This document shows positions 43,935 through 58,108 of a DNA stretch of 64,000 nucleotides, one piece after another. The first letter of the stretch is position 1; each line of letters starts with the position of its first letter. The DNA is taken from assembly GCA_018902385.1 (NCBI GenBank), contig JABSSW010000038.1:372001-436000 (forward strand), read 5' to 3'. The DNA is from Physcia stellaris (taxonomy: Eukaryota; Ascomycota; Lecanoromycetes; Caliciales; Physciaceae). Below the pieces are notes generated by a model that ran no database searches, was not told the DNA's origin, and was given only the letters and a program-made list of their open reading frames with translations. Position numbers and translations under genes: made by a program.

Positions 43935-44429
43935 CGTTGCATGTGGATCGCTGTTGCGATTTACAATTTGACACGATTGACGCAAGTTGAAACTCTGTGT
44001 TTTGCTGATGGCTGAAAGTCTGACAGGCGAGAGATTTCAAATTTGTTTATGAAGACGTCATGGCAACTCTACCTGAGTTGTGATCGGTGTTAAGTCTCGG
44101 CGTTAATCAATTTCCATCGGATGAAACCTTTCTCGCTGACGTAACGATGTCAGGATCATGTTCTAATTAATATTGACAAATTATAGTATAACGCAAAGAA
44201 AAATGCAAGTTTTTCATCTTTCAAGATTTAAAAATCACATGTTCGTATATGACATCTATTTACTGTTTTTTCGTTGAACAGTCATGAAAACAACGATATA
44301 TTTTGTCGTCATTTTTGTTTTTGAAATTTTGTTATTTATATGTTAACGTCTTGACGTTCGCTGAATGTGCAATTCTTGATCGACAACGAATAGAAATCAA
44401 ATCAATGATTTAAAATGTCGTTTGTATTG

Positions 44430-44611
44430 AAAAACATAAACAATGATTCGCATTTAATTGCGTGTAATTTCTAAATATAAACAAGTCAAAAACTTTGATG
44501 TGTGCGATGTCAAAACACTAATTTCAACAAAAACACATTAATTTTCGTTTCGTCAGATTATATCAATCGAATTCTTGCGCATTTATCATTGAGAAAATTG
44601 TTTTTTCAATC
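44430..44611 (+). repeat. Island-flanking direct repeat, left (mutated) copy
   Basis: It aligns with 52901-53083 (for example TTGCGTGTA-TTTCTAA, TGTGCGATG-CAA-ACACTA, CTTGCGCAT). Most differences are C-to-T or G-to-A in this copy, as expected if it was hypermutated and the right copy was spared. Confidence 0.7.
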
Positions 44612-44679
44612 TTTTTCACAGCATTCGTTTGTGTTTTCTGTTTAAAACAAATATTTTGATCAATTTGAAATTTTCGTTC

Positions 44680-44935
44680 AAACTTTTTAACGACGCGTGT
44701 TTTGAAACTTTCGTACAAATTTTTTCGACGACGAGTTTTGAAACTTTTTCAACGATGTGTATCTTGAAATTTTCGAGCAAACTTTTTCAACGCGATAAAT
44801 TTTCGATTTATTGAAACGAATGATTGTTATTGTTGCAAATTTTTTCAACGAAATGATTTTTAAAATTTTTTCAACGATGTATTGTTTGAAATTTTCAAGC
44901 AAACTTTTTCAACGCAATAGATTTTAAAATCAAAT
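44680..44935. repeat. Degenerate tandem repeats (about 60 bp unit)
   Basis: Repeated TTTGAAA-TTTTC-GCAAACTTTTTCAACG blocks recur five to six times with small changes. They belong to the older repeat DNA into which the Gypsy element inserted. Confidence 0.5.
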
Positions 44936-45650
44936 CATACATCGATGCGAAAATTGCAAAAACGAACGAATCGAAATTCGATAATTTATTGATTTCAAAT
45001 ATGACGTAAAATCGATTTGTAAAACGTGCGATCGAGCAACTGAAAACGCTTTGCGTTTTTTCATGAAATGTTACATTCATATGATAACAAATATTCAAAA
45101 TTGACTGAAAAAACACATTGTGAAACAAGTATTTTGTGTTTGAAAAATTGTCGTGAAAACGAAAATAACAATGCGACATATTGACGATTCGTGTTGTAAT
45201 TTATTCGACGACGTCATTGATGTTTCACAAAAATTTTCGATTTTTCATTTCACATTGCGATTTCATTGACTCAATATTTATGTAATTTCGCTGTAAAAAT
45301 TCAAAAATGTGTCAATGAAATGAAAAAAATGAAAAATGATCGAAAAATCGAAAATCAACAAAAAATATGCAAGACATCGAACATGCGAATCGTTTTCGCG
45401 AACATACATCGATGTAAAAATTGCGAATTCGAACGAATCGATTTTTATGTAATTCAAAAAATTTTGTCGAAAAATCAAATCGATTTGTATGACGAAAAGA
45501 CGAATATTTTTTGCAATTATTCGTTTTTTTTGATCGAGTTTTTGTTTTGCGAAATCGAAATGTAATGATTGATAATACGCTTTTTCGAAACGATATTATT
45601 TGATTTCAATTCGTATCATTGATTGTATATTTCACGAAATTGTACATCAT

Positions 45651-45755
45651 TGTAACAAATTCATTAGAAATACATCGTTGTAACAAATTCACTAAAAATA
45701 CGTCGTTGTAACAAATTCATTAAAAATACATCATTGAAACAAACTCATTGTTGTA
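45651..45755. repeat. 28-bp tandem repeat, about 3.5 copies
   Basis: The unit TTGTAACAAATTCATTA plus AAAATACATCG recurs at about 28-bp spacing with few substitutions. Just outside the 5' LTR of the Gypsy element. Confidence 0.7.
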
Positions 45756-45904
45756 ACTGTACAATACGTTTTTTCGAGATTGTATTGTCACGCATATTGT
45801 TTTTTTGTTACGTTTGATCGTTTTTTTCGTTTTTTTTTTCGTATTTATCGTTCGATAACGAATCGCAAAATGTAAAAAATAAATGAATTGTCGTGTTAAA
45901 TCAA

Positions 45905-45909
45905 AACGA
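45905..45909. repeat. Target-site duplication AACGA, left
   Basis: The five bases just before the 5' LTR are identical to the five after the 3' LTR (51403-51407). Confidence 0.85.
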
Positions 45910-46126
45910 TGCGACGAGCGTACATCGAATTCAACATCTGACAAAGTTAACATCGAATTAACATCGTTATCTTATCACATCGAATGTTAGAATCGAGGCT
46001 CGTCTTGACGCATTCAAGAAATCAAATCTTCTACATATGTCTTTGCAGATCTCATGTATTTGTTCTTCATTTCGATATTTTCGTGTAATTATGTAATAAT
46101 ATCATATTTTTGCATAACATTTCACA
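45910..46126 (+). repeat. 5' LTR (217 bp)
   Basis: TG...CA ends, exactly the same length as the copy at 51186-51402. The two differ at about 25 sites, nearly all transitions, most in CpT/TpT context. Confidence 0.9.
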
Positions 46127-47459
46127 TTATATCGAAGTCACTCGCTTCATGCTCGTTTATGATACGCGAGCATTCAAATAAACAAAGCTTTCTGTCTCAA
46201 AACTCAAGAATTGATAGAGAAGCATAATAGATTCGTATCGCTTGATCATTCAAAAAAAACAACAAAACGTAACAGATTGATTGTGAATGCGAAAAAACGA
46301 AGCATAATAGACTCGTTTGTCGATTCAATTGAATATTTTGACAGACGAATCTCAGCGATAATCGATGTCACGAAAATAATTTTCTCGAACGTCGATTCAA
46401 ATTCGTTTCATTATTAACTGACAAAGCTTTTTTGTTTCAGAGATGATTCGATTACATCATCAAACACATATCAAATCATTTCGAAAAAGTGACATTCATA
46501 CAAAGAAACATCAAGAAGTTAATCAGAAGTTTCATTCTCAATGATATTCAACTTTTTATCATTTCGAACGACATTACATTCAGTCGACTACTTAAGTTTT
46601 TATACTTCGGATTTTTTCTTCTTTTTTTCTTTTCAAGTTCAATCATCTATTATCTTTTATCATCATGATTTTTTCAATTCGTCTGAAAGAACGTCAACGA
46701 CTCAGCGAAGTAAAAGAGCTGAATATCTTCGATTCTAATCAGAAAATCGATGATTCTGAACGTTTTTTCGATATCTATATGATCACAACAGTGTTCGATT
46801 TTACAAAATCGAGTTTCATCATGATTTTGACGTCAATTGACATATTCAGTCTTTCGAAGTTAAAGAGAGCGACTCTTGAACAATCTGCACGACTCTGAAA
46901 AGTTCTGAAATCTTTTCGAAAGAATAGAAACAAGAAAGATCAATATCATTCGTGCTTGAAACAATCGCGAGAAGTACATAGAGACGAAAAATCTAAAGCA
47001 CTCTTTAGAGCTCGATGAAGTCAACGTTCAACTCGAAGCAAGTCGAGCTGAAACTCATAAGTATCGTATTAAAATCAACAAACGATTCGTCGCTGATCGT
47101 AAGCAAAAAGAAAAGAAATCAAGACATTCTCTTTGATCATGAAGAAGCTAAACGAAATTATCGACAACGTCAAAAGAAATTTAGTCAAAATAGAGACTGA
47201 TTTCGATCTGAATTTCAAGAAAGCTTTTAAGATCATGAAGACAGTCGTCGAGAAGTTGAAACGTAAAATTTCTGAATTTCTTAAGCGATTCGAAAGCGTA
47301 CTCAATTCGAAAGAAGTCGACAAACTGTTTTCGCATAAATTTTACGATCACAAAATCGAATTGACGAAAAGTTCGAATCAATTATTTCGAAATCGAGTCT
47401 ATTTTTTATCGTCTAAGAAGCTCGAGACTCTTCAGAAATATTTACACGATAATTTTCAA

Positions 47460-48046
47460 AAAGAATTTATCAATTCAAGCAAGACGTTCTATGTTTCGCT
47501 CATTTTATTCGTCGTCAAGTCGAACGAACAACTTCGCTTGTGTGTCGATTATCGAAAGTTGAACGTCATAATCAAGCGTAATAGTTATTTTATTTCGTTG
47601 ATCGAAGAGACTTTCGCAAAAGTTATCGATTGTAAATTTTTGTTCAAGTTCAATATCATATCTGCTTTCAATAAATTTCGAATGAATTCACAAAGCGAAA
47701 ATTTCACTATTTTCATATGTTCGTTAAACATTTACAAGTATCATGTATTGCTTTTGAATTAATCAACGATTCGATCAATTGACAGCATTACATGAACGAT
47801 TTGCTGTTCGAATACATCAATCATTTTTGTCAAGTGTATTTGAACGATATTCTCATTTACAGCAAGACTCGAAAGCAACACGAGCGACATTTCACTCAAA
47901 TATTTCAGAAATTAAAGAAAGTCGAACTTCAAATCGATATCAAGAAATGCGAATTTTTTCAAACAAAAGTTTTCTTTCTCGACGTCATATTATCAACAAA
48001 GAGTTTGCGCATGAACTCAAAGAAAATGCAAGACATTGTCAATTGA
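47460..48046 (+). pseudogene. Reverse transcriptase region of the Gypsy element (broken)
   Basis: Contains LRLCVDYRKLNVIIKRNSYF (the conserved V-D-Y-R-x-L-N block), FNIISAFNKFRM and, after a stop and frame change near 47763, VYLNDILIYSKTRKQHERH. The catalytic YxDD box reads YLND. Confidence 0.85.
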
Positions 48047-48179
48047 ATTCGTTTCACTTGCATCAAGAAGATGCAAACGTTTGTAAACTTTTGCAATTTC
48101 TATCGACGTTTCATCAAAACATTTTCGAAACTCGTCAAATTCTTAATTCGAATGATCAAAAAGAAAGTTGATTTCGAGT

Positions 48180-48560
48180 GAATCGATTTGATCAATGAGG
48201 CGTTCGAAATCTTGAAGAAACAAACGATCGAAGCTTCAATTCTTCGACATTACGATCGCAATCGTAAGACGATTTTGAAAACTGATTTTTCGAATTGATG
48301 TCTAGAAGAAGTTTTCTCTCAGTACGACGACGACGAAGTTCTTCATTCGATAGTTTTCTTCAGCAAGAAGATGATTTTTGTCGAATGCAATTACGAGATA
48401 TATGACAAGAAACTTCTAGTCATTATTCGATGTTTAAAGCATTCAAGATTCGAACTCGAAAATATCGACGAATTCGTCGAGATCTACATCGATCACAAAG
48501 ATCTGAAAATCTTTATAACAAGCAAGAAATTCACTTTTCGTCAAATGCGTTGAGTCGAGA
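48180..48560 (+). pseudogene. RNase H region of the Gypsy element (broken)
   Basis: Residues NYEIYDKKLLVIIRCLKHSR and YIDHKDLKIFI correspond to the Y-x-x-x-E/D-KEllAIv...W and TDHkdL blocks of Gypsy RNase H. Stops interrupt it. Confidence 0.75.
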
Positions 48561-48949
48561 TTCTGACTGATTACAACATCAAAATTCAATATCAGTTCGA
48601 CGTCAAGAATGTTAAAGCTGATGTTTTGATTCGAATGTCTGAATTTCGTTCAGCGAAGAACGACGAGAAAGAGTTTTATAAAGAGCAAATTTTGTTTTTT
48701 TTTTTTTTCGACTACAACTATGTTCAATAAACGCGATGAATGATTTGTACGAGCGTGTCATGCAAGTCAATCGCGAGAACGAAAATTGTATTAATCATCG
48801 TCAAACTTTGATCGATGATCAAATCATCAACGAAAAAGTAAATTTTCGGAATTGTTCGAATCGAAATGAAGTTCTATTTAAGAACGAGAATTTCTGAATA
48901 TCAAATCGATTAGATTTTATGATTGAAATAATTCGTGACGTTCACGATC

Positions 48950-49990
48950 AGTTCTTTTTGCGCACATTCGAACATGAATCGTATTGAGAAACTCATTAAG
49001 CGCTATTACTATTGATTTAGTATGAAATTATTCATCAAGCGCTATATTCGTAATTGTCACAAATGTCAACGATCGAAGTTCTCACACGATGATCGTCACG
49101 AATTACTTATTTCATTGTCGATTTCTAATCAACGATGAATTGATATATCGATGAATTTCATAATCGAACTGTTTGATTTCAAAAGCAACAATGTCATTTG
49201 TATTATCATCGATCGTTTGATCAAAAAACGTCATTACGTTTTTTGCGTAATCGATGACGATGATTTGACAATTCAAGTTTGTGTCAAAATATTGATACAT
49301 TACGTATTTCGTACTCATGAATTACTTTTTTTCATCATTTCAAATCGAAATGATCAGTTCGTGAATCGCGTCTGAAAAATTTTTTGTAAGCGACTAAAAA
49401 TCAAATGTAAATTGTTCATTGTTTTTCAATCTGAAATTGATGATCAAATCGAACGAATCAATCAAAATATCGAAACTCGACTACGTTTGTATTGCAATTA
49501 TCGTCAAGACGATTGAGTTGATTGAATAAACATCATGAAGTTCGTTGACAACAACGATGTTTCAACAGTCATCGAATTCACTTCATTTTTCATCAATAAA
49601 AATATCATTTTCGAATGATTTTCGAATCAAATCTAGATGATTACATGAAATTACAAAAGAACGTCTGTTGACTAAACAGAACGAATTCATTGTCGAGAAA
49701 ATGAATCGTATCATCGAATATGTCAAGATCAACGCTGTCGACGCAAGACAAAAATGATTGTTCGAATCAACAAATCTCGCTTGTTTATAAGTTTTGATAT
49801 AGAAAATTATCTTTGATTAAATCGTCGTCATATAAAAACGATTCGTTCATCAAACAAATTCGATGATAAAAAGTTGAATTCATACAAAATAATCAAAAAA
49901 AAAAATCTCGTTTATGAGTTGAAATTGCTCGACGACATGCACATTCATTCAGTTTTTCATTTTTGATTGTTGAGAAAAAATTTTAAAAAC
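48950..49990 (+). pseudogene. Integrase region of the Gypsy element (broken)
   Basis: Zinc-binding end IRNCHKCQRSK at about 49050, core VICIIIDRLIKKRHYVF at about 49196, then the Gypsy-type C-terminal motif KIIKKKNLVYELKLL-DDMHIHSVFHF at about 49890-49965. Several in-frame stops. Confidence 0.8.
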
Positions 49991-50499
49991 TCGTTAAAGA
50001 AACAACATAACGACTTTTCAAAATCAATTATTGCAAATGAAATGTTTGAGTGAAAATTCGACAATATATTAAAATTTCGATATCATTATCATCGATTACA
50101 ATATCGTTGCAATTGATTCGAATGAAAATTTCACAATCGAACATGATATTACGTCGACGACGACGAATTTCAAAATGTTCAAAACATCGTGAATGTCTTT
50201 CACGATGTTAATTCAAAAACAACAAAATCTGTTTTGCGAAATGACTAAATCATGAACTTTATTGTTTATGATCGATCAGAAAATTGTCATCGAATTCGTT
50301 ACAACTCATTTTCACATTGATTTCAATAATTTTTTTTTTTTGTCATTCGTTTCGTTATCATTTCGCGTTGTTTACAGTCAGAACTTACGTCGCATGAAAA
50401 ATTGAATCGTGTCAAAAACATTTTCAAAGATTGTCGTCAAATCTTATTGAACAATGAGTAATAATGTAAAATGTCATGCAATGAAATGAATAAACGCAA

Positions 50500-51010
50500 A
50501 TTGTCAAAAAAGTTCGAACATTTACGAGTTCGTCAACAAAATTCTCAATTGCTTACTAATGACACGCGAAGTTATTTGTAAGATTCGTTCAAAATATTTG
50601 TCTTTCAGAAAATTTAATACATGCATATTTCGCTGAATGCAATGTACGAATCAAACGTCGTATATGCGATAACATCAACGCGTTAATCGTGATGATAAAA
50701 ATTTTATCGACATGATCAAATTGTTCGTCTCGTGATATCAATTTGATGTTGCAAAAATTCTCAAAATTGCTGACGCGTTCAATTGTTTGCTTATTAATGT
50801 TCGTCGAAATTACTTCTGATGAATTGTATGAATTGATCATTTTTCACGACATTCATTACATTCACGTTTTGTCGCATGCAATGTACACATCAACTTTCGC
50901 ATACGCGAAAATGTCAAGATTTTAAACATTGTTACGATGATTCTATTAACATGATCAGACTGCTCATTTCATCGTAAATCGATTTGATGTTTTCACGATT
51001 TTTGACGAAT
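50500..51010. repeat. Internal tandem duplication, about 240-bp unit
   Basis: GCAATGTACRMATCAA followed by GATAA...ATGATCARA occurs at about 50639 and 50878. The bases upstream also align (AAATTCTCAA...TTGCTTA-TAATG). It lies between the integrase and the 3' LTR. Confidence 0.55.
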
Positions 51011-51185
51011 CGATTTCGCGAACGAAATCGATTTCACAACATTTCGAATTTATTTGTTCATTTCATCAATCATTCAATTCAACGTCACTCAACAGCGCAT
51101 TTAGATCGCGCAAAACGTTCATCGTTAAAAACAAAAAAATTCAATTGATCGCTTCGAGACGAAACTGAAAAAAAACGAAAAATAA

Positions 51186-51402
51186 TGTGACGAACGTACA
51201 TCGAATTCAACATTTGACAAAATTAACATCGAATTAACATCGTTATTTTATCATATCGAATGTTAAAGTCGGAATTCGTTTTGACGCATTCAAGAAATCA
51301 AATTTTTTACATATGTTTTTGCAAATTTCATGTATTTGCTTTTCACTTCGATATTCTCGTGTAATTATGTAGTAATATCATATTTCTGCATAGCATTTCA
51401 CA
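51186..51402 (+). repeat. 3' LTR (217 bp)
   Basis: Begins TGTGACGAACGTAC and ends CATTTCACA; pairs with the 5' LTR. Confidence 0.9.
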
Positions 51403-51407
51403 AACGA
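51403..51407. repeat. Target-site duplication AACGA, right
   Basis: Matches 45905-45909. Confidence 0.85.
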
Positions 51408-52900
51408 AACAACAACAAAAAAAAACAATCATGTTTTTACAAATCAACAAAACAATTTTTCTTTTTTCTGATCAATGATTTTTTCAAAATAAAACGAAAT
51501 AAACGATAACAAAACGAAAAAAACAAACAATAAAACAACAACATGTTAAATTTTTTCAAAAACGATTTTTTTTAAATGAATGATAAAACGAACGAAAAAA
51601 ATAAAAACAAATTAACACGATTTAAAACTTTTTCGAAATAATGATTTTTTCAGATTAAAAAAATCATTAACGAGAAATTCGAAAACAACAATTTTTGTGA
51701 TTTTTTCAAATCAACACTTTTTCAAGAAAAAAATTCTCATGAATATTTTATTGTTTTCAATTTTCAAAACGATCGATGCGAATCAATTGTTAAACAAATA
51801 AATGACAAAATAATTTTGACAACGTTTGCAAATTGAAATTGAATGAAAAATTTTCGAAAATCGAAAATCGTGAATCGAAATCGAAAATTGACGCGAAAAG
51901 CTTTCGCGAATATGTGTAAATTTGAAAATTTCGAATTTGATCGTTTCGAAAACAAATATGATCGTCGCATTGAAATATGACGTAACGTGAATTGTATGAA
52001 ACGATCATTGTTTTTGAAATTGCATTTGTCATAATTGCGCGAAAAAAACGAACGCAATTGATATTGTTGCAAACTCATTGATTTCGATTTTTCAAAAACA
52101 TACGATGTAAATCATCGTCGATCAGATGAAATTCTGATTGAAAATTTGAAAATAAATGATGAAACGAACAAATCGGCAATTTTTGATGCAAATTTCGATT
52201 TTTTGATTGAAATTCATCGTTTTTATTTCTTGTTATGTTTTTATTTTAGTTTTTTCATTGACGTGTTGCTGAACAAAACGAATAACGAAAATCGAAAAAT
52301 GAATCGAAATGTCACGTGTAATATGAACGATCGATTAAGTTTTTCGATCGAATAACGATTTGACGAATGTCAATAAAATAATTAATTCGTATCGTACATA
52401 ATTAATTGACGCATTGACGAGTAATCATTTGAATAATCGTTTTCGTACATGATTAAATGATCGATTGTCGAGTAAATGTAAATTTGTTGAATTGACATTT
52501 TTCAATTTTTTTGTTTTTAACGCAAAATCGTGTATTTTTGTTTCAATGCAAAATCGTTGTAAAGTTTTTCTATTGTCGTTTAATTCATTCGTTGAACATG
52601 ATGATCGATTTCGTGAATTCTTTTCACAATCGTTTGTTCATTCGCAAAGCTGATGATCGAATCGTGTAAATTTTTTTATTGTCTTAACGCGATCGAACGA
52701 TGAGTTTTTTTTCACAATCGTTTGTTCATTCGTTGAACTGATGATCGAATTCATGCGATAAATGAATACGAGTTCGTTTACGAAAAGTCATCTAATATTT
52801 TTAAAAACACGTTTCACGGCTTGTCAGGTCGAACTGCTTGTCAAAAGCAGTTGCAACATCATTGCCACGGACAGCATACGCTAAACTCGGGCTCATAACC

Positions 52901-53083
52901 TATTGAAAGACATGAGCAATGAATGCATGAATTGCGTGTATTTTCTAAGTTACAGACAGGTGATAGCATTCTTGTGTGCGATGCCAAGACACTAGTCTCA
53001 ACAAGAACGCACTAGTTCTTCTTTCGTCAGGTTATACCAACTGGACCCTTGCGCATCCACCACTGCGGAGGCTGTCTTTTCAA
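52901..53083 (+). repeat. Island-flanking direct repeat, right (unmutated) copy
   Basis: Normal base composition, unlike its partner at 44430-44611. It lies directly upstream of the broken Atg22-like gene. Confidence 0.7.
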
Positions 53084-53286
53084 CAGCTTGCATACTTGTC
53101 ACGACCGTAGAGATTTGGACTCGGCAAAGTTGAAGAAATTCTCGTTAGTAAAGTCGTCTGAGCGCGTCAGCCTACTAGCGCAAGGTGATTTATGATCGAG
53201 CAGCTATGTTCATTCTTTTCGATCGTTAAAGAGCGTCTTCGCAGAATGCATTCACGTCTTGAGGTTATCTTACGCCTTCACCTGTC

Positions 53287-54644: not shown

Positions 54645-55370
54645 ATGAGGCTAATTCCCAAAAGGCATCCAGATGGTCCTCACTGGCTGAATTTATTGAT
54701 CAGCTTGATCACCAGAGAAACACCACATGATGCTTACTGGTATCGTAACTTCAACCCTGGTGTTCTTTTTGTCGTGCAAGGTATAGAAGAGGAGGCTTAC
54801 CGGTACATGAATAAACAAGGTAGGCCTGGTCCCTGACCTCAGCTCATCTGAGAATACACGGCTGACTTACCAGCAAAAGGGCTCGTCGTGGACGTTGGTA
54901 CTCCGACTAAAGAAGGCAACATCATTGTCTCGCCGCTATCCGACGGGTCGTGCAAATTCGATATTACGGCACTTCGATCTTACATCAACCGCGAATTCTC
55001 AGAGATCAGCCGCTCCCAGTGCGAAGATATGACACAAGCCTACGTCGCCAGCAGCGTGCACGTTCTCCGTAAGCTTAGCCTTGCCTTATCCAAACCCACT
55101 ATTCGAGAATCGTACGACTCGATGCGAGATTTTGTGTCGCGACCGGACAGCATGGAGGTTTACTGTCGACAGCTGAGTGACCAGTTGACGCTTTGCGAAA
55201 GCTGCTTTGACAGGCCGATATTGTACAATATTGTCAAGGACGAAGCTGCGATGCAGAATCATATCAGCAACCATAATTACGGGGGCTCGGCTCGTGATTC
55301 CCTGTATCAGATGCTCATGTCGGCAATAACAGATCACCGTTTGTGGCAGTGGCAAAATGAACGGGATTGA
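54645..55370 (+). CDS. Tandem family of unknown function, copy A
   Basis: Two exons, join(54645..54819,54874..55370), give 223 aa. The 54-bp intron has a GCTGAC branch site and phase 1 after the codon before Gly/Ala. Exon 1 has the family motif RETPHDAYWYRNFNPGVL and EEEAYRYMNKQ. Exon 2 has SPLSDGSCKFDITALRSYI, then the cysteine core YCRQLSDQLTLCESCFDRP and ILYNIVKDEAAMQNHI. The C-x9-C-x2-C plus downstream His pattern could bind a metal ion, but this is an inference. No signal peptide or membrane helix. I do not recognise the family. Confidence 0.7.
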
Positions 55371-55687
55371 GTCCGTGGACCTAGCGAGCAGATCGAGTAG
55401 CGGATTTCTTTAGGCGAATTTGAGAAATTTGAGATATGGTGTTGATTGGATTCCAGGGATTGCAGGGATAACAGCAATCATGTTGCAGACGATCAAATAT
55501 GCGAATTGCCGAACTAATCTGTTACCAGCCTATTAGATAGTAGAGATATTCTAGAAGCTTGATCGCGATGACATCAGGATGCGTTGCAATAGCTACTTTG
55601 TCGAAAACTGCTTAATCAGTACACGTAGAGGACCTTTGATGAACATTTGAAGCGGAACACGAGTAGTTCGCTCAGTGCTTATATTCA
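55371..55687. other. Intergenic, nothing recognised
   Basis: Lies between copy A and the second MITE. Confidence 0.4.
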
Positions 55688-55886
55688 TTCCATGGTCTGG
55701 TAATAAGTGGTGCTAATCTTCACGATTACCCGATCCAGCAGAAAATGATGCCATCTTCATGTCATATTCATATCATCTTCACGCCGTCCTCATATGCTTT
55801 GTGCCCAACACGGGGAAGCGTGTTATCATATTGAATGTATCGATGACGATGCATGGGAGAAGATAGCATCACAACGGACCATGGGA
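55688..55886. mobile_element. MITE, copy 2 (diverged)
   Basis: Related along its length to 27078-27311 (CATGGTCTGGTAATAAGTG, TTCATGTCATATTCATATC, GCTTTGTG-C-AACACGGG, GATGCATGGGAG). Ends are imperfect inverted repeats, TTCCATGGTCTGGT and AACGGACCATGGGA; the flanking TA is lost. Confidence 0.65.
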
Positions 55887-56332
55887 ATAGTTGAAGAAGT
55901 ATCTCTGAATGAAATTAGATAGCCTTGACTTGTTTTGAGATTAGTATCAAAATGAAGAGAAGCCAAATCACTCAATTCAGTTGGTAGTACTCGGTCCGTT
56001 CTATGGTTTCCGCTACACAAATCTGTTGATACGTTAGGAATCGGTGCTAAATTGGAATGATCATGATGTGAAGGGTTCAAGGTAGCACAAAGTTCAGGGC
56101 GTCAGCGTCACCATACACGCACATATTAGTGACCAGCTGCAGGGTCACAGGCCTCCTTTCATTGAGACCATTCACCGACTCCTCAGGCCAGATGAGTCAC
56201 TTGTCCATCTATAAGACCTAAGATTGTCGATTGATTCATGGCCGCCGACTTTCCTCGACGCACCTGCGAAGATTAGTGTAATACTTTCCTATACCCTCTT
56301 TCACAGTCTCGGTCGTCTGCAAGTAACTCGAT

Positions 56333-56986
56333 ATGGGTAACTCGCTCAGCAACCTCTTGCAGGGTCCAAAAGAAACCCCTGACGATGCGTTCTGGTACAA
56401 ATACATCAACGTTGGGGTCCTACAAGTCGCAGCAATGCTAGAACAGGAGGCGTACAAGCAAATGGGGAAACCAGGTAGACAAGACTTGGCTCTTTTCGAA
56501 CACGAAAGACTGACTGGAGCTGCAGGTGGTAGGATCGCCATTCGCCATTCCAATTTTGATACTCGGAAAGGGATGACATTTTCAACCCCACTGTCCCGAA
56601 GACCCGCTATCTACGACCATACGGTGATCAGATCGTTTATTGAGGATCGTTGTGCGAACGTCGACAAACGCCGAGCCGCAGAATTAACGAAGCATTTCAG
56701 CATAATCCACGATAATCCACATTCTGGCCTGGCTCAACTAGAAGGCGCGATGCCTACATCATTTGCGTACGTCAAAGAAGGATTAGTGGGTAAAGATTGT
56801 AAATCGGTCTTCTGTGAGCAGCTGAGTGATCAGCTTGGATTCTGCGACGAGTGTCAGGCAAGGCCCATATTGTATAGCGTTACAAAGGATGAGGATCGGA
56901 TGCGGCGCCATCTGGAAAACACCGCAATAAAAGAAGTGAGGATAGGGAGCTTCTCGACCTGCTTCTGTCGACGCTTCAGTGAGTAG
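56333..56986 (+). CDS. Tandem family of unknown function, copy B (frameshifted C-terminus)
   Basis: Two exons, join(56333..56474,56526..56986), give 200 aa. The 51-bp intron sits exactly where copies A and C have theirs (phase 1) and contains no stop, so unspliced RNA would also stay in frame. Motifs: KETPDDAFWYKYINVGVL, EQEAYKQMGKPG, then FCEQLSDQLGFCDECQARP and ILYSVTKDEDRMRRHL. After HLEN the frame diverges from the paralogues. Another frame continues as NKRSEDRELL and DLLLSTLQ to a TGA at 56980, like the copy C ending, so one base is probably lost in the GAAAAC run at about 56917-56922. Confidence 0.65.
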   Translation: MGNSLSNLLQGPKETPDDAFWYKYINVGVLQVAAMLEQEAYKQMGKPGRQDLALFEHERLTGAAGGRIAIRHSNFDTRKGMTFSTPLSRRPAIYDHTVIRSFIEDRCANVDKRRAAELTKHFSIIHDNPHSGLAQLEGAMPTSFAYVKEGLVGKDCKSVFCEQLSDQLGFCDECQARPILYSVTKDEDRMRRHLENTAIKEVRIGSFSTCFCRRFSE

Positions 56987-57430
56987 ACACATCCACATGT
57001 GATGCCGGAAGCTTCTTGGAGTGAGTTGGGTCTAAGGAGCTGGTTGGAAGGCTGTAACGGACGCAACGAGAGTATTGCATTGGCGATCTTGCGGGTTCCC
57101 AGATACGGGAGCGTGAATAATCAGACCACACGCTTGCTACATAGCTTGTGACAAGTTATTGAATTAGAGGGACGCTGATCCAAAGTATGACTGATGCACA
57201 CCCACATGACAGGATACTACTTGTGAAGCCCGAGATTAGCTTTGAACGGAGGGCTAGTGGAGAATTGACTGTCACTAGGTGCTGTGATTGGTTTGGAAAC
57301 CTCTTCACCTCATCGGTTGCACAGCGCGCCATCTTTAAAAGGGTCCTCCTTCCACCAACTTTGCTCACAGATCCACTCTTTTTTTCCGTTTTAAAATCTA
57401 GACTCATCATCGGATCTTAGCCAGTATACC
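56987..57430. other. Intergenic, nothing recognised
   Basis: Spacer between copies B and C. Confidence 0.4.
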
Positions 57431-58108
57431 ATGGGAGGTAATACCTTCAGCGCCTTGTCGAAGGAGACACCAGATGATTTCTTTTGGCTAAATTCCTTCA
57501 ATCTATACGTCCTCCAAGTCATATCGGAAATGGAAGTGGATGCACATAAATACATGGAGCGAAAAGGTGTCTCTAATCACTTCAAATTCTGAACATAAAC
57601 TTACCGCTGTACTGCAGACGCCCATATTGCGAAGCCCTCGGGCGCAGTTGAGAGGACTGGAGCCACTTTCAAATCACCCCTCTCTCGGGAAGCATACAAG
57701 TTCAACATTCAGGAATTGAGTTCTTACATCGACAACCAGTGCGAGAAGATTGACAAAGCCCGCTGTCACCGGATGGGACAGAGTTTGCGTATATCATCTC
57801 TGGTGGCCAACATCTTCCTTCGGATCGACAAGCGTAACCTTACCGCATCATACGAGCCCGTGCGAGCCTTTGTGGCGCGAGTGAGTTGTAAAGAAGAGTT
57901 CTGCCGGCAACTTAGTGACCAGCTGGTTTACTGTGATGATTGTACGGAAAGGCCGGTCTTACACAATATATTGAAGGATGAGGATGCGATGCGTACACAC
58001 CTGGATAAGCACAACAACGAGAGCGATGCTAAGAGGGCCTTGTATGATTTGCTCTTATCGGATGTAGAGAAGTTGAAGTCTCTTGGAGCATCTAGCTCAA
58101 CGACCTAA
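57431..58108 (+). CDS. Tandem family of unknown function, copy C
   Basis: Two exons, join(57431..57566,57618..58108), give 208 aa. The intron (51 bp, phase 1) is at the same position as in copies A and B. Motifs: KETPDDFFWLNSFNLYVL, EVDAHKYMERKG, SPLSREAYKFNIQELSSYID, then FCRQLSDQLVYCDDCTERP, VLHNILKDEDAMRTHL and DAKRALYDLLLSDVEKL. It has the most regular C-terminus of the three and serves as the family reference. No signal peptide, no transmembrane helix, no recognised domain. The next start-codon frame (58111-58467) begins just after its stop but shows no family feature. Confidence 0.75.

Follow-up and report, generated by a model that had tools for sequence, protein, structure and literature searches.

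Within a 64,000-nt stretch of the Physcia stellaris genome (contig JABSSW010000038.1, positions 372,001 to 436,000, part of our contig C38; hereafter called the window), a tract at positions 44161–52800 has lost practically all its CC and GG dinucleotides. Two nested long terminal repeat (LTR) elements make up nearly all of this tract. In its DNA and in related copies elsewhere in the genome, CpC is converted almost to exhaustion and CpT somewhat less, while CpA and CpG are nearly untouched, on both strands. The conversion rule CpC>CpT>>CpA>CpG, with C before a pyrimidine (CpY) as the target, is near certain. We consider it very likely that an episodic, near-exhaustive, repeat-directed C-to-T mutator with CpY specificity, akin to repeat-induced point mutation (RIP), acted on the transposon DNA of this tract.

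The tract holds no CC and six GG in 8640 nt. Its base composition predicts 389 CC+GG, and the lowest of 300 shuffles contained 341, a depletion stronger than the near absence over about 8.6 kb that a first-pass annotation of the sequence had claimed. The last GG upstream of the tract is at 44153 and the first one downstream at 52818. The longest stretch without CC or GG is 124 nt outside the tract, compared with 2423 nt between two consecutive GG inside it. GC content is 30% in the tract and 49% in the remaining, gene-bearing DNA of the window. Observed/expected ratios are 0.48/0.54 for CT/AG, 1.25/1.15 for CA/TG, 2.65 for CG and 0.43 for TA. CpA/TpG and CpG thus stay abundant, as had been noted, and the ranking of CpC above CpT proposed in the same annotation stands with one correction, namely that CpT too is strongly depleted and the rule is therefore CpY, CpC most of all.

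Simulation of this rule (CpC 100%, CpT 60%, CpA and CpG 0) on the flanking DNA (55,360 nt) yielded the composition of the tract, with a GC fraction of 0.297 compared with 0.300 observed. The simulated and observed densities per kb were 52.8 and 53.7 for CT+AG, 134.6 and 126.3 for CA+TG, 54.8 and 59.7 for CG, 48.7 and 52.2 for TA, and 311.7 and 308.4 for TT+AA. The CpT rate of 60% is a fitted value, and the remaining composition figures follow from the rule. A CpA-type rule applied to the same flanking DNA failed to reproduce the tract.

The most direct evidence comes from comparisons of copies collected from the whole assembly (43.97 Mb, 147 contigs). As reference, we used an unmutated element copy (L048) with 51% GC, a CC/GG observed/expected ratio of 0.98 and a reverse transcriptase match without stop codon, whose family has the reverse transcriptase upstream of the integrase. 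Five mutated members (L054–L058) were compared with it, each reference site being counted once per copy. Pooled conversion amounted to 1978/2027 sites for CpC (98%), 1817/2116 for CpT (86%), 177/2029 for CpA (9%) and 89/1869 for CpG (5%), with ranges per copy of 94.6–99.3%, 79.5–93.9%, 5.9–14.5% and 3.3–7.4%, respectively. The pooled background was low, with reverse transitions at 156/7792 A/T sites (2%) and transversions in 115/15,835 columns (0.7%). The C side and the G side behaved equally in the four of five copies that were split by strand. The 5' neighbour had almost no effect at CpC (ACC.98, CCC.97, GCC.97, TCC.98), and at CpT conversion ranged just from.83 to.90 over the four contexts (ACT.83, CCT.86, GCT.84, TCT.90); we therefore rejected a rule set by the 5' neighbour. 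As a negative control, two unmutated copies that are 95% identical (L049 and L050) showed no CpY bias between them (CC.038, CT.039, CA.031, CG.020).

The anatomy of the tract provides further comparisons. Its features, with target-site duplications abbreviated TSD, are the following:

44161–52800, no strand: CpY-depleted (CpC/CpT-mutated) tract.
44161–44424, no strand: mutated flank beyond the outer element, possible spill-over.
44420–44424 and 53086–53090: outer TSD, GTTTG (mutated) and GCTTG (unmutated), read from the sequence, the left copy having a CpT change.
44425–53085, plus strand: outer LTR element of ~3 kb without the nested insert, defined by the LTR pair, paired LTR matches, right-arm matches and the TSD letters.
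44425–44609, plus strand: outer 5' LTR, mutated, extent from BLAST with the last few bases uncertain.
45910–51402, plus strand: nested Ty3-type retrotransposon relic.
45905–45909 and 51403–51407: inner TSD, AACGA.
45910–46126, plus strand: inner 5' LTR, 217 bp, TG...CA.
47783–48043, plus strand: reverse transcriptase piece (RVT_1, PF00078, E 8.5e-12).
48044, 48179, 48296 and 48551, plus strand: in-frame stops of the reverse transcriptase and RNase H pieces (47783–48553), all four TGA.
48299–48550, plus strand: RNase H piece (PF17917, E 3.7e-13).
49016–49135, plus strand: integrase zinc-binding piece (PF17921, E 9.5e-5, 22.9 bits, below the curated cut-off of 25.5).
51186–51402, plus strand: inner 3' LTR, 217 bp, TG...CA.
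52901–53085, plus strand: outer 3' LTR, 185 bp, largely unmutated, from the drop in CpY conversion past 52800.

The inner element displays the LTR pair, the TSD and the order reverse transcriptase, RNase H, integrase zinc finger of Ty3-type LTR retrotransposons, its integrase piece being below the curated cut-off. Matches to the outer-element LTRs occur as pairs ~3 kb apart on several contigs. Over 224 aligned columns, the inner LTR pair shows 27 transitions and no transversion, distributed as 21 CpT, 2 CpC, 3 CpG and 1 CpA; two of the three CpG changes sit just outside the 217-bp LTR. This agrees with the count by eye in the first-pass annotation, in which most LTR differences were CpT. The flanking repeat pair reported there to show the same pattern corresponds to the LTRs of the outer element (44425–44609 and 52901–53083). 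They indeed differ mainly at CpT (17) and CpC (10), but also at three CpA, three CpG and one gap-adjacent C, and by 10 transversions, which indicates that the outer insertion is not young.

Against unmutated relatives, and with the main alignment of each arm only, the outer element shows changes at 119/136 CC, 118/160 CT, 24/167 CA and 9/117 CG in its left arm and at 157/190 CC, 122/178 CT, 16/194 CA and 9/183 CG in its right arm. The same order was found for the inner element relative to the diverged, unmutated L049 (60% identity), with 172/275 CC, 124/276 CT, 54/271 CA and 59/274 CG. Among 31 distinct LTR copies, T was found where another copy has C at 59/60 CC, 3603/5207 CT, 1821/27902 CA and 294/20389 CG. 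A polarised test was attempted as well with a DDE_1 transposase family, for which a single alignment with 58% identity was available (CC 17/64, CT 31/88, CA 15/101, CG 7/82, with 163 transversions in 777 columns); we judged it too diverged to count.

The coding remains of the inner element bear the mark of the same rule. Proline, glycine and tryptophan are absent from all 434 residues of the four open pieces in 47103–48550. The open piece at 47103–47762 is in a frame other than that of the reverse transcriptase and RNase H pieces and ends with TAA; although it looks like reverse transcriptase by eye, a Pfam search of 47103–47759 gave no reverse transcriptase match. TAA and TAG do appear further downstream in the reverse transcriptase/RNase H frame. 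Among the best 150 of 527 reverse transcriptase candidates in the genome, which were scored, 140 contain stops, with 250 TGA, 33 TAA and 3 TAG overall. Such an excess of TGA is expected from TGG to TGA conversion through GpG change, whereas CpA-type RIP would give TAA and TAG from glutamine codons. Likewise, 10 matches of the DDE_1 family, including two that overlap, contain 44 TGA, 3 TAA and no TAG. Proteins would thus be destroyed by loss of the proline (CCN) and glycine (GGN) codons and by conversion of the tryptophan codon TGG to TGA, rather than by TAA and TAG arising from glutamine codons.

The phenomenon extends well beyond this tract. From the LTR search, in which the best 40 of 299 candidates were scored, we fetched 30 loci, all of which are CpC-depleted; 20 of them have zero CC or GG over about 3.2 kb, including one (L011) that contains 1292 N. 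Loci with at least nine CC/GG extend into normal DNA. Ten outer-repeat loci are likewise CpC-depleted, one of them (L047) being partly mutated and another (L038) extending into the window flank. The right arm of the outer element is matched in the 40 candidates scored of 139, its own locus among them. Unmutated relatives of the elements have normal CC/GG contents, and in the copies examined the changes were not mainly from CpA to TpA.

A ribosomal DNA (rDNA) relic was mutated in the same way. The only 5.8S rRNA among the best 39 of 2644 candidates scored lies in this relic (L066, G000:C41:44399 onwards), and a functional rDNA array may be absent from the assembly. Relative to the Rfam consensus, conserved positions are changed at 27/30 CC, 19/35 CT, 0/28 CA and 0/35 CG, and at 3/235 A/U. 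These figures come from 10 alignment rows and two further small subunit (SSU) rows, with two variable large subunit rows and the terminal portions of the SSU match left out. The 10 rows alone give CC 25/28, CT 17/33, CA 0/27 and CG 0/27. When one more SSU row, which aligns poorly, is added to the full set, the values become CC 28/34, CT 19/38, CA 1/33 and CG 0/35; other changes then number 6, and A/U is changed at 10/251. Inclusion of all consensus positions in the 10 rows blurs the contrast (CC 93/135, CT 57/93, CA 12/90, CG 21/115). CpY change therefore occurs in several LTR-element families and in an rDNA relic; some young insertions and the remaining 55 kb of the window lack it. The 31 LTR copies, the eight outer-repeat copies described below, the five polarised members and the rDNA relic together support the earlier suggestion of a RIP-like process with an unusual target context.

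Classical CpA-type RIP does not account for these data. We scanned for it in 1-kb windows with a stricter set of RIP index thresholds (product at least 1.1, substrate at most 0.75 and a positive difference) and with milder ones (0.89/1.03), as they appear in extracts of PMC2621366 and PMC7882544. None of the 127 windows of the query stretch and none of the 429 windows in 79 loci passed the stricter scan, although 270 of these 429 are CC-depleted, i.e. contain at most 10 CC+GG; no CC-depleted window passed the milder thresholds (0/270). CpA-type RIP was thus rejected both by the flank simulation and by the index windows.

The order and the timing of the mutations can be read in part from the copies. 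In 250-bp tiles from the loci and the window, whose source loci overlap in part, CT+AG decreases from 32.7 to 26.2, 17.4 and 6.0 in CC+GG bins of >20, 6–12, 1–5 and 0, and CA+TG (31–35) and CG (13–15) are similar at every CC level. That CT falls with CC while CA and CG densities stay flat indicates that CpC goes first and that C before a purine is left. Three loci (L053, L064 and L047) are partially mutated, with patches of higher and of zero CC, and might represent intermediates in this order. As for timing, a complete, pristine outer element with identical LTRs, normal CC/GG and the TSD GTTTT is found at G000:C75:65057-68020 (L070, L071), and it is flanked by mutated DNA devoid of CC/GG over 1492 and 1504 nt. 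Mutation therefore predates this insertion and did not act there again, which favours episodes over steady, chromatin-linked drift.

Two characteristics of RIP in the broad sense are seen here: the changes are C-to-T transitions affecting both strands, other changes being few, and the genome encodes a methyltransferase of the RID/Masc1 class (by motifs). A genome search with PF00145 revealed three genes (four exon-level matches), so that both RID-type and DIM-2-type genes, whose presence the first-pass annotation had proposed to check, are represented. The gene on contig C3 is DIM-2-like, with 1118 open codons, an ENV motif and a match to PDB entry 9bap (4.6e-188). The C5 gene is RID-like, with PPCQFFS and EQT motifs. 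The C6 gene (L037, G000:C6:789500-793500) is a second, divergent RID-like gene with PPCQSFS and with EET for EQT, and its motifs are apparently intact. EQT in place of ENV is a feature that we take to mark RID, the class of all these genes being assigned by motifs. The two RID-like proteins are 38% identical in the methyltransferase part (286 columns) and 34% identical in an N-terminal stretch (149 columns). A PDB search with the RID-like protein returned only other C5 methyltransferases, e.g. HaeIII, HhaI, DNMT1 and DNMT2.

We infer that the process may be RIP in the strict sense, i.e. premeiotic, homology-triggered and RID-dependent. Sequence repetition would be the trigger, activity would be confined to part of the life history, for instance the sexual cycle, and the writer would be a RID-family cytosine methyltransferase, encoded by the C5 gene, the divergent C6 gene or both, possibly together with DIM-2. 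More tentatively, we propose that the divergent RID-class C6 protein (EET for EQT) or a re-tuned RID gave rise to a CpY-specific RIP running almost to completion. RIP target context would then be able to evolve with the enzyme, and such alternatives may go unnoticed in fungi that CpA indices class as RIP-free.

An alternative is that DIM-2 methylates CpY in heterochromatin and that deamination follows, mitotically or slowly, without RID or the sexual cycle. The genome does contain a DIM-2-like gene, whose open frame is long, DIM-2 of Neurospora prefers CpT according to the accessible part of a 2026 review, and in Zymoseptoria tritici the repeat mutation rate is reported, in a source available in part, to fall upon loss of Dim2. 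The preferred dinucleotide in that review is CpT, however, not CpC, and the pristine C75 element within mutated DNA speaks against this scenario. In addition, the CpC change per site, -ln(1-0.976)=3.7, exceeds the transversion level of 0.0073 ~500-fold, as slow spontaneous deamination would require; this excess is probably too large for ordinary methylcytosine deamination. We therefore regard the DIM-2 route as unlikely. A sequencing or base-calling artefact, such as methylated C misread as T, would also produce apparent C-to-T changes, but CpY is not palindromic, so that reads of the opposite strand would show the true base. The near-complete CpC conversion, the hardly detectable dependence on the 5' base, the variation of CpT between copies and the halt at the LTR edges of the young copy further make an artefact very improbable. 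C-to-T hypermutation of retroelements would fit an APOBEC-type cytidine deaminase acting on single-stranded DNA or cDNA. APOBEC-type deaminases, however, read the 5' neighbour, which is nearly irrelevant here, and favour one strand, whereas the C and G sides are equal, and the rDNA relic is mutated too; this explanation is hardly credible. Finally, elements devoid of CC/GG from the outset would explain the depletion itself and nothing further, and the possibility is negligible given the normal CC/GG of unmutated relatives of the outer element, the inner element and another family, the missing proline, glycine and tryptophan, the four TGA stops and the changed rRNA positions.

Several observations weigh against a CpY-specific, repeat-directed mutator. 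The unmutated L049 (G000:C5:1166521-) and L050 (G000:C12:60312-) coexist without CpY-biased change. They have open frames of 1024 and 1151 residues and are 95% identical over 3.5 kb, a pair expected to be mutated under classical RIP; the process is thus not active on every repeat now. The mutated DNA examined comes from rDNA or from families of repeats, and the window is normal elsewhere, yet the 264 nt of apparently single-copy flank past the outer element (44161–44424) are mutated. A genome search revealed no second copy of this flank, although it might miss an unmutated copy of ~70% identity, and evidence for homology dependence is indirect. Conversely, ~285 nt within the outer element are largely unmutated. 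CpY conversion on the right arm is 74–96% per 150 bp as far as 52800; it is 37/44 at 52650–52799 and drops to 15/37 and 7/35 over the final ~285 nt of the element, which include the 3' LTR. Tract and outer element are thus offset, with a largely unmutated 3' LTR and 264 mutated nt past the 5' LTR, which we explain no further than by a mutated segment not aligned exactly with the element. The contrast between contexts is weaker for the inner element relative to L049 (CC.63, CT.45, CA.20, CG.22, with 344 transversions in 2124 columns). The eight diverged outer-repeat copies (CC.81, CT.62, CA.22, CG.18) are weak evidence by themselves because their CpA and CpG differences are higher and transversions equal transitions. 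Moreover, the five polarised copies have a common ancestry and a single reference. The earlier claim that CpA and CpG are largely spared holds at the pooled 9% and 5%, but CpA change in each copy (5.9–14.5%) exceeds the ~2% reverse rate, and CpA is therefore not wholly spared.

Like RIP in Neurospora crassa, the process converts C:G to T:A on both strands in repeats, a RID-type gene is present and transposons are inactivated. The Neurospora order is CpA>CpT>CpG>CpC (PMC5496416, in part), which differs from CpC>CpT>>CpA>CpG here; the products are TpC and TpT rather than TpA, and most stops are TGA. CpT-biased RIP, in which CpT to TpT is a major class as in our case, is known from Botrytis, Sclerotinia, Magnaporthe and Colletotrichum truncatum. 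These genomes also carry a CpA signature, and no CpC signature is reported for them in the portions of PMC4352252 and PMC6180176 available to us. The TpA/ApT index is 0.93–1.68 in C. truncatum families, according to the accessible text, compared with 0.39–0.57 in our 30 LTR loci. The available part of Amselem 2015 reports CpA, CpT and CpG signatures (PMC4352252). Trichoderma reesei RIP, observed in crosses, similarly has a shifted dinucleotide preference, CpA being about equal to CpG, then CpT, with CpC last (PMC5496416, same portion). Microbotryum and other basidiomycetes display CpG-type (TpCpG) mutation with Masc2-like enzymes (PMC4352252, likewise in part); this is also C-to-T change of transposons in a non-CpA context, but CpG is the most spared context here.

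According to the accessible part of a survey that screened 1,239 fungi by means of context-free k-mers, RIP-like defences 'share a preference for CpA' (PMC12543289). A CpY case could, in principle, be detected by that screen, and its k-mer tables are a place to look. No CpC-first or CpY preference was found described in the literature searched, parts of which were accessible, and as far as that literature shows, CpY-specific RIP-like mutation is previously undescribed. Since strong repeat mutation here gives opposite index values, surveys based on CpA loss and TpA gain would score this genome as RIP-negative. RIPCAL already defines an index (CpC+GpG)/(TpC+GpA) (PMC2621366, in part), which makes a re-scan of public genomes cheap. 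The accessible part of the 2026 review states that purified RID has no detectable activity in vitro, which has made the RIP target context hard to study so far. P. stellaris, in which the specificity is nearly inverted and conversion near-complete and which has two RID-like genes, offers a natural system to ask what sets that context.

Beside the tract, at 54852–58108, are three adjacent, related open frames of normal composition that share, by eye, a CRQLSDQL / RPIL motif and represent a diverged gene family.

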